The position numbers and the translations under genes were made by a program. A stretch of 37,673 bases of DNA from an uncultured Clostridia bacterium (GTDB lineage: Bacteria; Bacillota; Clostridia; Oscillospirales; Ruminococcaceae): assembly GCA_947589215.1 (NCBI GenBank), contig CANQCL010000017.1, positions 1 to 37,673 on the forward strand. Direction: 5' to 3'. Each line of letters opens with the position of its first letter. The first letter of the stretch is position 1. The notes under the pieces are model-generated. The model ran no database searches and was not told where the DNA came from. It was given only the letters and a program-made list of their open reading frames with translations. Below are positions 24,575 to 37,199 of the stretch, one piece after another.

Positions 24575-24595
24575 AGTTATTGATAAGTAAATAAT

Positions 24596-24760
24596 TTCGG
24601 TAGGTGAGGCTACCACAGGGATACGGGACGCTGCCGCGAAATGGTGGAGACACTGTCAGCTGGTCAACAGGAGATGTCGATTCAAGGCATAACCTAACGC
24701 AGTTCCAATGCAAAAATCTTACGCCCTGCGAAGCTGAAGCTTGAACGTCTGTGATTGGTA
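24596..24760 (+). ncRNA. M-box (ykoK) magnesium riboswitch aptamer
   Basis: The leader carries the conserved blocks of M-box RNAs: GGTAGGTGAGGCTACC, GGGATACGGGACGCTGCCG, GGTCAACAG, GGCATAACC and the TGCGAAGCTGAAGCTTGAACG close. It lies ahead of mgtE, the usual target. M-boxes sense intracellular magnesium and shut off the transporter when it is plentiful. The exact ends are estimated. Confidence 0.92.
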
Positions 24761-25039: not shown

Positions 25040-26407
25040 ATGGATGAAAAAACACTCGAAGCTACTGCCCTTGAGCTTATTGAAAATAAGCAGTATACAA
25101 AGCTTAAGTCTTTTCTAAAAGACCAAAATCCGTATGACGTGGCATCTCTTATGGAAGAGATAAACGATGTGGATCTAACTCTTGTTTTTAGAATACTTCC
25201 TAAGGATAATGCGTCTGAAATTTTCTCCAATCTGCCTAGTGAGATTCAGGAAAAGCTGATAAATTCTTTTTCTGAGAACGAGCTTCGTAAGGTATTAGAC
25301 GAACTGTTCTTGGACGACACAGTCGACCTTATTGAAGAAATGCCTGCAAATGTGGTATCGAGAATTTTAAAGAACACCGACCCGCAGACAAGAAAGAGAA
25401 TAAACGAAGTCCTAAACTATCCTGACGACAGCGCAGGAAGTCTTATGACTATCGAGTATGTTTTCTTTGCAAAGGATATGACCGTTGCTGAGGCAATGAA
25501 AAAGATAAGGCAGGTCGGCTTTGTAAAGGAAACCATATACACCTGTTATGTAACCGAGTTTAGAAAACTGATTGGAACGGTCGAGCTTCTTGACCTTATC
25601 ACTGCTGACGAGGACGCAAAAATAGAAGATATAATGGATACAAACGTGATCTATGTAAACACTCACGACGACCAGGAAGAAGTTGCAAACTCAATACGCA
25701 AATACGACCTAATGGCAATTCCCGTTGTTGATAACGAAAACCGAATTGTCGGTATTATCACTGTAGACGATATCATCGACGTTATCCACGAGGAAACAAC
25801 AGAGGACATTCAGAAGATGGCAGGTATTTCTCCTACCGACGAATCTTACTTTAACACCTCTGTATTCTCTCACGCAAAAAGCCGAATTCCTTGGCTTTTA
25901 TTTCTTATGTTATCTGCTACCCTATCGGGTGCTGTTATTAACCACTATGAAAGTCTTTTAGTTTCAATACCAATACTCTTTTCATTTGTACCTATGCTTA
26001 CAGGTACAGGAGGAAACTGCGGTTCGCAGTCATCTACTATAGTTATCAGAAGTCTTGCTATGGACGAAATTGAATTTAAAGATTTCTTTAAGGTTATGTT
26101 CAAGGAATTCAGAATTGCCCTTTTGGTAAGTTTTGTTTTAGCGGCGGTAAACGGGGTGAGGATCTGGTTTGTTTACAGAAATGACGCCGATATAAATTCC
26201 GCATTGCTCGGTTTTGTAATAGGACTTTCTATAATCGCAACTGTCATACTTGCCAAAACGGTGGGCTGCGTGCTTCCTATGATCGCAAAGAAGCTTCACT
26301 TTGACCCGGCAATTATGGCGGCCCCGCTTATCTCGACTATCGTTGACGCCTGTTCGGTATTTTTATACTGTAACATAGCAATAAAAATTTTTGATATACT
26401 CGGGTAA
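25040..26407 (+). CDS. mgtE: magnesium transporter MgtE
   Basis: A 455-residue MgtE/SLC41-family Mg2+ channel. It has an N-terminal superhelical domain (about 20-130), two CBS domains (about 135-260) and a five-helix membrane domain from about 285. The pore segment includes MLTGTGGNCGSQSS, and another conserved stretch, DPAIMAAPLISTIVDA, lies in the last helix region. Cytoplasmic Mg2+ binding closes the channel, and the M-box upstream adds gene-level control. AAGGAGG lies 9 bases before the ATG. A strong terminator follows. Confidence 0.95.
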   Translation: MDEKTLEATALELIENKQYTKLKSFLKDQNPYDVASLMEEINDVDLTLVFRILPKDNASEIFSNLPSEIQEKLINSFSENELRKVLDELFLDDTVDLIEEMPANVVSRILKNTDPQTRKRINEVLNYPDDSAGSLMTIEYVFFAKDMTVAEAMKKIRQVGFVKETIYTCYVTEFRKLIGTVELLDLITADEDAKIEDIMDTNVIYVNTHDDQEEVANSIRKYDLMAIPVVDNENRIVGIITVDDIIDVIHEETTEDIQKMAGISPTDESYFNTSVFSHAKSRIPWLLFLMLSATLSGAVINHYESLLVSIPILFSFVPMLTGTGGNCGSQSSTIVIRSLAMDEIEFKDFFKVMFKEFRIALLVSFVLAAVNGVRIWFVYRNDADINSALLGFVIGLSIIATVILAKTVGCVLPMIAKKLHFDPAIMAAPLISTIVDACSVFLYCNIAIKIFDILG

Positions 26408-35380: not shown

Positions 35381-35521
35381 AAAAATGTGCGCGATAAAGT
35401 AATTTTAACGCTATCCGCTTATGCCACTCTCTGCACATACAGAGCTTTTAAATGCACTGATAAATTATAATATTCCAAAAGACATTACAATGTGACAAAT
35501 TAAGACGCTTAAAAACATAAT

Positions 35522-35556
35522 AAGACCGATACATTACTGGTGTATCGGTCTTTTAT
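35522..35556. terminator. 12-bp terminator-like stem
   Basis: AAGACCGATACA (35522-35533) pairs with TGTATCGGTCTT (35541-35552). On the plus strand TTTTATA follows; on the minus strand TTATTATGTTTTT follows. It is placed where the candidate minus-strand RNA would end. Confidence 0.65.
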
Positions 35557-35829
35557 ATACCATATTAAATTTGTATTCTAAATCACATTTAATTTTACTT
35601 GATAATCGGTTTCACTCTTCCGATATCATTCACAGTATTAAATCATTTAGTCTTAACACTACATCCGTTAAGCTGATACTAACACTAATGTTATTATTTT
35701 AATGATATTCTTAAAGCATTTAAAATCTTAAAACTTATATCAATGCACTTCTGAATGTCTGCGGCTTTTGTTATAGCTTTGTTAGTTTAAATCTTCATCA
35801 GTTAAATAGATTCTGAAATTAGATTTCGT

Positions 35830-35889
35830 TTATATAACTGCCGAGCCGACCTTCAGGCTAACATACACTGATAAATCTTCTGTTGCCAT
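35830..35889 (-). CDS. 19-codon ORF in the candidate RNA
   Basis: MATEDLSVYVSLKVGSAVI, with GAGG 8 bases before the ATG (35887-35889) and a TAA stop. An in-frame ATG six codons upstream lacks a good site. It starts 19 bases after the stop of the preceding small ORF. No homology is recognised. Confidence 0.35.
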   Translation of the reverse strand: MATEDLSVYVSLKVGSAVI

Positions 35890-35908
35890 TGGACTCGCCT
35901 CTTTCATC

Positions 35909-35968
35909 TCAAATTTCAAGCAATCGGTCTTGATAGGCTTTAAGTTTTCTTTTTAACATTCCTATCAC
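35909..35968 (-). CDS. 16-19 codon ORF in the candidate RNA
   Basis: From the GTG at 35968 it is 19 codons; from the ATG at 35959 it reads MLKRKLKAYQDRLLEI. AAAGGA lies 6 bases before the GTG. The peptide is basic and could form one amphipathic helix. No family is recognised. Confidence 0.35.
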   Translation of the reverse strand: MIGMLKRKLKAYQDRLLEI

Positions 35969-36025
35969 GCCCTTTCCTTTTATTCCAATCTTGAGAATTA
36001 AATCAGCAGCCTCTTATAAAGCTAC

Positions 36026-36057
36026 ACAGTCTTAACTGTTCATCGGACTGTTCTCCT
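36026..36057 (-). other. repeated SD-hairpin module 3 with M-N-S ORF
   Basis: AGGAG (36053-36057), stem ACAGTC/GACTGT (36026-36031 with 36046-36051), loop with CCGATG; ATG-AAC-AGT-TAA occupies 36032-36043. Confidence 0.55.
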
Positions 36058-36099
36058 ATTCAAAAATTTGATTTGCTTGGTATTTTTCAATACCTAATT

Positions 36100-36123
36100 A
36101 TTAGCACATCGGTCTAATCTCCT
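36100..36123 (-). other. repeated SD-hairpin module 2 with M-C ORF
   Basis: AGGAG (36119-36123) abuts the stem ATTAG/CTAAT (36114-36118 with 36100-36104). The nine-base loop contains ACCGATGTG. ATG-TGC-TAA occupies 36101-36109. Confidence 0.55.
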
Positions 36124-36156
36124 TTTCAAATAATTGTTACAGTATCAGAATAAATC

Positions 36157-36184
36157 TTAACAGTTCATCGGACCTGTTCTCCTT
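36157..36184 (-). other. repeated SD-hairpin module 1 with M-N-C ORF
   Basis: AAGGAG (36179-36184) abuts the stem AACAG/CTGTT (36174-36178 with 36159-36163). The ten-base loop contains GTCCGATGAA. ATG-AAC-TGT-TAA occupies 36157-36168. Confidence 0.55.
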
Positions 36185-36257
36185 AATCAGAATTTTGAAG
36201 TAAAGAAAAATTCAATCAATCTTATATTAATAATCGTCTTTTCCTTTCCTCAACTAT

Positions 36258-36286
36258 AATATATCACACTTATTATCAGTTGTCAA
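36258..36286 (-). promoter_or_regulatory. promoter of the candidate large RNA
   Basis: On the minus strand TTGACA (36281-36286), 17 bases, TATATT (36258-36263); TATTAT two bases further is an alternative -10. It is divergent from the DUF1292 promoter. Confidence 0.75.
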
Positions 36287-36932: not shown

Positions 36933-37121
36933 AGTAAGAATCATTTGTTACTTACAATAAACTTTCTGCCTTGTACGAACAAGCACAGTTTTTATAATCC
37001 AACACATAGAATAAGGGAACTAAGCTCTGACTGAGGATTGCAGACCTCCCGAATTTTTTCGGACGAAGGGAGCGCGAGGCTGTCAGGCCGTTACCCACCT
37101 GCACGAGTGCGGGTTTTATTC
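36933..37121 (+). ncRNA. unidentified structured RNA of about 190 nt
   Basis: Downstream of a promoter, the sequence folds as a GTAAG/CTTAC hairpin, a CTTGT-ACGA-ACAAG hairpin, an 82-base complex arm (37015-37096: GGGAAC with GTTACCC, CTGAC with GTCAG, CTCCC with GGGAG, CCGAA with TTCGG) and a terminator CCTGCAC/GTGCGGG followed by TTTTATT. There is no ORF with a ribosome binding site. Size and independent transcription fit a 6S-like RNA, but I cannot match the 6S consensus. The 412-base gap (36857-37268) also has a second strong hairpin at 37145-37199. Confidence 0.55.
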
Positions 37122-37144
37122 ACTGTGCGACGGCAAGGCGGATA

Positions 37145-37199
37145 TATTTGAAATTCAACTGCCTATCTGGTATCATGCCGGATGGGCAGTTCGCAAATA
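37145..37199. other. long hairpin downstream of the small RNA
   Basis: TATTTG (37145-37150) with CAAATA (37194-37199) and AACTGCC (37157-37163) with GGCAGTT (37185-37191), extended by ATC/GAT pairs. There is no T tract. It could belong to a read-through form of the RNA upstream. Confidence 0.45.

Follow-up and report, generated by a model that had tools for sequence, protein, structure and literature searches.

The window, a stretch of 37,673 nt from an uncultured clostridial bacterium of the family Ruminococcaceae, carries near its right end a predicted RNA gene on the minus strand (Table 1). A LytR-CpsA-Psr gene converges on it from one side, and on the other lie a DUF1292 gene and then 6S RNA, which is divergent. 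The promoter matches the consensus at 11 of 12 positions, with a TG preceding the -10 box, and the far end carries a 12-bp stem that is perhaps common to the RNA gene and the convergent LytR-CpsA-Psr gene. The near-consensus promoter and the terminal stem had both been pointed out in a first-pass annotation of this DNA, and both were confirmed. Because the RNA terminates in a hairpin and converges on the LytR-CpsA-Psr gene, a leader or attenuator of a downstream gene was rejected. The statement, made in the same annotation, that the region contains no ORF of more than 25 codons holds nearly but not exactly, as two minus-strand ORFs of at least 20 codons touch it: nt 35830-35919 (TTG start, 29 codons) and nt 35448-35534 (ATG start, 28 codons, mostly past the terminator stem). 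As regards remnants of a decayed gene, the longest ORF in the RNA region has 29 codons, and start and stop frames are conserved, not decaying.

Table 1. Features of the predicted RNA gene and its 6S RNA neighbour (positions in the window).
Feature	Position	Strand	Basis
6S RNA, divergent syntenic neighbour, separate gene	36960..37148	+	Rfam RF00013 match
Sigma-70-type promoter TTGACA-17-TATATT, extended -10	36258..36286	-	consensus matches and family conservation
Predicted RNA gene, ~730 nt; predicted start ~36251, end ~35520	35515..36252	-	sequence-based
RBS and minigene A, AUG AAC UGU UAA (MNC, stop)	36157..36184	-	
RBS and minigene B, AUG UGC UAA (MC, stop)	36101..36125	-	
RBS and minigene C, AUG AAC AGU UAA (MNS, stop)	36032..36057	-	
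RBS and tiny ORF D, 16 codons, MLKRKLKAYQDRLLEI, stop	35909..35977	-	
Element E: RBS GAAAGAGGCGAGUCCA and 19-codon ORF (MATEDLSVYVSLKVGSAVI, stop)	35830..35905	-	
Hairpin CUUAAC/GUUAAG	35652..35672	-	
Hairpin AUCGG/CCGAU	35605..35624	-	
12-bp terminator-like stem, flanks T-rich on both strands	35522..35552	-	

The minimum free energy of the RNA region is -160.2 kcal/mol, compared with -136.3 ± 4.7 in 20 shuffled sequences (z = -5.0). Near the 3' end (nt 35605-35672) there are two small hairpins, and the helix enclosing the second shows compensatory changes in the genus. Repeated CCGAT and ATCGG words are present as described, with 8 occurrences in 738 nt (6 + 2) against a Markov mean of 0.56, a count reached in 0 of 1000 shuffles. 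The loop-loop contacts proposed on the strength of these complementary words did not hold up: the words are far above chance, but three of the six CCGAT copies in the window lie within start-site motifs (two UCCGAUG, one ACCGAUG), and the complementary set is not conserved, because relatives vary between CCGAT and CCAAT at the start-site motifs and keep 0-2 ATCGG words.

Rfam searches of the whole window returned, at gathering thresholds, only an M-box, 6S RNA and tRNA, and none of these in the RNA region; the 4227 models were assumed to include ROOL, GOLLD, OLE and raiA, to which the region gave no match. Six relaxed matches (E ≤ 5; STnc240, SpF39, TtnuHACA28 and three others, E 0.15-4.7) were rejected as chance because they fall below gathering and were described from unrelated organisms. 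With no family at gathering and low, unrelated relaxed matches, the earlier idea of a large ornate, oligomeric RNA of the ROOL/GOLLD kind was not sustained; the RNA resembles ROOL, GOLLD and OLE in size and predicted independent transcription, but differs in the missing Rfam match and in complementary words that are not conserved. Judged by titles and the opening lines of abstracts, no description of this RNA was found in the literature. PMC8040213 reports 3161 candidate structured RNAs, and fragments of this RNA may be included among them. The M-box (magnesium) riboswitch occupies nt 24589-24760 (plus strand, 97 bits), upstream of an ORF at 25040.

Searches of related genomes recovered homologues, with a DNA match in 11 of the 15 genomes of the window's genus. 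Nine matches are long (174 bits or more, the window's own included), and those in G001 and G002 cover only the 37-base core of element E. An alignment of the window with eight relatives (alignment A1, promoter included) has a mean column identity of 66%, and its conserved blocks are the ribosome-binding site (RBS) motifs; by eye, conservation is lowest between the ribosome sites. The 3' portions vary more: the match in G013 stops at query base 474 and G009 and G012 carry a different terminator hairpin. In five genomes (G001, G002, G007, G008 and G014) the RNA lies beside the same DUF1292 gene in a rearranged form, with E first and then the minigenes. G006, which is 84% complete, showed no match to the RNA or to the DUF1292 gene.

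Beyond the genus, the tallies of the order, DNA and pattern searches, which do not represent prevalence, are as follows. Model R1, built from element E, matched 67 of 394 genomes of the order at E ≤ 0.01, with strong matches in families f1 and f13; the weaker ones outside these two include ordinary gene starts (e.g. L110, L126, L130). The DNA search matched 13 of 396 genomes, seven of them beyond the genus at 41-50 bits, two of which (G189 and G349) are family members. The family pattern gave 30 matches in 29 of 396 genomes, and several of the 18 inspected are ordinary gene starts (e.g. L055, L057, L070). In total, 63 units (47 plus 16 more) of about 245-1460 nt were obtained from 15 genera, the end of the longest unit being set by hand, as was that of G248, and some ends by default; 16 more genera are added by the signature described below. 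A promoter score of at least 11.2 was found in 46 of 47 delimited units, as against 4 of 940 Markov controls, and in 15 of 20 further loci, some of which are false matches. A terminator-like hairpin was detected in 42 of the 47 units by a crude search run without a control, the one in G248 probably being internal. Promoters, terminator-like ends and synteny strongly support, at the level of sequence, the dedicated transcript of unusual size predicted in the first pass.

The hallmark of the family is a repeated RBS element, GGAG..(A/G)GUCCnAUG. Sites A, B and C of the window fit the definition of a minigene, in which a Shine-Dalgarno sequence precedes an AUG that is only a few codons from its stop. 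All nine A1 sequences have GGAG or GGA..(A/U)CC(G/A)AUG at these sites and then one or two sense codons and a stop, and in the A1 translations the stop is retained despite codon changes (MNC, MNG, MKY, MIC and MN at site A; MC, MCC, MCY and MVH at site B). Among 67 units, an in-frame stop no more than three sense codons after the AUG was present at 101 of 128 UCCnAUG motifs outside E, compared with 27 and 12 early stops in the +1 and +2 frames of the same motifs and with 204 of 893 other AUGs, in a tally that counts related genomes singly, so that the events are not independent. Minigene B was left out of this tally because the window has ACCG there and not UCCG. The 101 early-stop motifs have 0 (6), 1 (51), 2 (43) or 3 (1) sense codons after the AUG and use TAA (59), TGA (28) or TAG (14); within the single RNA of G103, AUG GAC AGU is followed by UAA, UAG or UGA. 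The pattern is present in most genus groups, with at least one minigene in 41 of the 67 units. The other 26 comprise 15 without a UCCnAUG motif outside E and 11 whose motifs all lack an early stop; g165 and g216 together have an early stop at 0 of 11 motifs, and g138 has no minigene motif. The sequence GGn(1-3)GAGUCC occurs 38 times outside E, against a shuffled mean of 1.28 (maximum 4) and 9 occurrences on the reverse strand. Site spacing in the minigene arrays is about 50-110 nt. Judged by these patterns, the start and stop of the tiny ORFs are under selection, and it is in this form that the first-pass suggestion of a micropeptide carrier stands. The number of minigenes differs between close species, the A-B unit being tandemly duplicated in both G005 and G010 (loci L020/L014).

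Longer frames are opened at sites D and E. The E ORF has 11-28 codons in 63/63 units (a count made without a control) and 11-23 in the nine A1 sequences; it starts with ATG in 61 units, GTG in one and TTG in one, the start codon, unlike ORF length, having been a picking criterion for most units. The D frame, which in the window contains a GATAGG/CCTATC stem (nt 35932-35966), stays open at 15-17 codons across a 3-nt indel in 9/9 sequences. These frames raise the possibility of a polycistronic micropeptide mRNA, in which the E (M-x-x-E...) and D peptides would be the products and the minigenes accessory. Such an mRNA would account for the survival of D across the indel, for the glutamate found as the fourth residue of the E peptide in 52 of 63 units, and for the synonymous excess of E in g216 (10 sequences; 97:80 in frame 0 against 37:140 and 23:122 in the shifted frames). 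We read the last as peptide-level selection in at least one group, beside the selection on start and stop. The excess is weak in g138 (14:19 against 6:28 and 12:22), small for E of the window's genus (15:22 against 11:28 and 11:21), and absent for D of that genus (7:22 against 6:21 and 11:18) and in g1b (6:13). The E peptides, moreover, differ almost wholly between genera past the first residues, and the minigenes, being an AUG plus 0-3 changing codons, cannot encode a conserved peptide. On this balance a micropeptide mRNA is unlikely.

Element E is a conserved structure as well as an ORF, judging from its alignment. In the window, CGAGUC (nt 35897-35892) pairs with GGCUCG (nt 35847-35842). 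Across alignment A4 (47 rows) the stem pairs in 83.7% of cells, a percentage raised by the omission of the four genomes without a stem in the window's genus, of L062 and L112, of the f24 loci and of near-duplicates, and the share of paired cells was reached by 2 of 500 shuffles; coordinates were set by hand for L108, L115, L116, L132, L047, L085 and L106. The covariation score of 0.182 was reached by 0 of 500 shuffles (slid maximum 0.052), and in an earlier, model-fitted alignment by 3 of 500. Three of the nine pairs are changed on both sides, mainly GC/AU at the first and CG/UA at the third, but this count was reached by 79 of 500 shuffles. In roughly half of the rows or more, the first pair and the last pair cannot form, and G004, G005, G010 and G011, a clade of four genomes, lack the stem. 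The CUCG strand occurs in all three frames of the E ORF and is therefore kept as RNA. That strand, the stem and the low folding energy (z = -5.0) would be expected if the RNA were large, noncoding and purely structural, after the manner of ROOL or GOLLD, and if its AUGs and stops simply happened to fall in a structural motif. This is very improbable, as no Rfam match to the RNA was found in the 50 sources scanned and the identity of the stop varies while its frame is kept.

The sites, E above all, are predicted to pair with the 3' end of 16S rRNA. Mean pairing energies with the 16S tail are -18.3 kcal/mol for E (63 units), -14.3 for GGnGAGUCC sites without an AUG (13 sites) and -13.1 for minigene RBSs (105, prefiltered at -5 kcal/mol), compared with -10.3 for 19 genes of the window, although the strength at E is partly built in because the E models and patterns contain the GAGUCC core. 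The gain of the real last 8 nt over shuffled ones is 3.0 kcal/mol for E, 2.3 for sites without an AUG, 1.5 for minigenes and 1.1 for genes. None of the 19 window genes has UCC at -4 to -2 (starts taken from the longest ORF). The 16S tail GCGGCTGGATCACCTCCTTTCT was found in three of six genomes searched (G145, G588 and G707), and no 16S match was found in the other three, the window's own assembly among them. With this tail the core AAAGGRGGYGA-G-UCCA is the near-antisense of UGGAUCACCUCCUUU, with one bulged G, and we infer from this that the sites would capture 30S subunits.

Sequences of this type may also serve to protect a transcript. According to PMC4113751, STAB-SD, the stabiliser of cry3A mRNA, is an SD-like, untranslated stretch that can bind the 16S 3' end; it binds 30S, blocks RNase J1 and directs no translation. 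An SD-like sequence, predicted here to pair with the 16S 3' end, is the point of resemblance to the present RNA, yet the window has several copies, sites A-E, each followed by an AUG and a short ORF. By analogy, the RNA could act in trans or as a scaffold through a part other than these sites, which would only shield the transcript from RNase J or Rho. The spacing of the array sites and the compensatory changes in the genus, in helices within and after E, would fit. We nevertheless consider it rather unlikely, since STAB-SD needs neither a start codon nor an early stop, both of which are selected here, and since the sequence between the sites is by eye the least conserved.

The RNA gene is often found divergently upstream of 6S RNA. 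A 6S match above gathering was present in 15 of 50 Rfam-scanned sources (1/1, 5/9, 4/20 and 5/20), and all 15, as read from the coordinates, are upstream of the RNA gene and divergent from it. In the reverse test, which is the stronger one, 118 genomes were searched for 6S, and the 30 loci returned, selected on 6S score and nothing else, were inspected for the signature (a minigene, an E-like ORF or GGnGAGUCC). The divergent-upstream quadrant carried it at 19 of 30 loci, and the other three quadrants at 0, 2 and 0. L178 of these 19 was previously known, L164 and L173 depend on a single weak feature, and the remaining 16 each represent an additional genus. The 6S match of G103 is on a different contig from the RNA. 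In one genome a pair of 6S RNA matches is separated by about 3 kb (G018:C3:1077168-1080319).

Taken together, the sequence evidence points to an RNA built as an array of translated minigenes, whose role may be to engage ribosomes and not to yield a protein, a reading to which we assign a probability of about 0.45. It starts from the transcription unit, the promoter, the E stem, the selection on starts and stops and the synteny, all visible in the sequence, and would extend to expression, ribosome engagement, trapping and a physiological role. The Shine-Dalgarno sequence, running into the fixed (A/G)GUCCn just 5' of the AUG, would form a ribosome-landing site; site E would open the 11-28-codon ORF closed by the stem, and the further sites (in 41/67 units) would open ORFs only a few codons long, so that ribosomes would initiate and stop almost immediately. 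Extensive pairing of the sites, above all E, with the 16S 3' end (UGGAUCACCUCCUUUC, one bulged G) could make the RNA a multi-site trap for ribosomes (30S subunits), which would tune initiation capacity or store or protect idle subunits, a counterpart of what 6S does with RNA polymerase. Against this reading, pairing of the UCC depends on the bulged G and would stop a single base short of the AUG, which may hinder initiation, and the UCC could instead fold back on the GGA. The most specific version, in which hyper-Shine-Dalgarno sequences and start-stop minigenes form a multi-site decoy that parks or protects 30S subunits, draws on the analogy with 6S and RNA polymerase and is doubtful; the putative decoy would be encoded back to back with 6S in many genomes. 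Also considered as possible were a CsrA sponge and a resemblance of GAGGCGAGUCC to RNase P.

We know of no described RNA with this architecture of minimal ORFs in tandem. Its parts (Shine-Dalgarno sequence, minigene, dual-function RNA) are of known kinds. 6S RNA, which binds RNA polymerase, is alike as a neighbouring conserved RNA gene and in the proposed analogy of a trap for a core machine, but it is not known to have such ORFs, and the RNA region gives no covariance-model match to RF00013. RNAIII and SgrS are dual-function RNAs of regulatory size, each also with a small ORF; they have one ORF, whereas here there is an array, without an Rfam match. Lambda bar is one example of a minigene. 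Known minigenes (two-codon ORFs; axe-txe mg2) likewise have a strong Shine-Dalgarno sequence, an AUG, one or two sense codons and a stop, and in PMC8708949 they are described as potentially toxic on overexpression, with a suggested cis-protective effect on mRNA through ribosome binding. They lie in leaders of protein genes, whereas here they stand in tandem in a predicted, terminated RNA of their own with no gene downstream.

If expressed as predicted, this would be an RNA gene found in about 30 genera of bacteria from the gut and rumen. It would then be possible to test directly if RNA decoys serve bacteria in the control of free ribosomal subunits, and if the translation of one to three codons matters physiologically. 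Such genes can escape gene callers, their ORFs being too short, and also structure-based RNA finders, a large share of the gene being short RBS repeats and not helices.

The true range of the family is wider. A class-wide search with model R2 matched 10 of 391 genomes, six of them inside the order; of the four beyond it, by eye, L136 and L141 resemble ordinary gene starts and L140 a short true relative, with L138 ambiguous. Four Ruminococcus MAGs (L027-L030) have, in the same position, a version of about 1.15 kb that includes an E-like ORF (MDSLEPKSIRRLG.. or a similar one) and minigenes reading AUG-UAA (3/4), AUG GCA UAG, AUG GCU UGA and AUG GCU AUG UAA/UGA. R2 misses their E-like element and gives weak matches (14.4-16.6 bits) on later minigene sites, and the range therefore exceeds what the models find. 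With respect to viral origin, one exact element-E pattern gave 0 matches among viral contigs. In f13, units of g138, g165 and g216 carry another conserved block, likely a hairpin, with the sequence GGGCATACYGATGRGTATGG or one close to it, about 100-370 nt after element E (L087, L090, L094, L107, L111, L118, L123); five g227 loci (L113-L117) are without it. The possible relative L140 is about 200 nt long and has GGAGGTGAGACCAATGG, a 20-codon ORF beginning MGSE (by eye) and a terminator-like hairpin.
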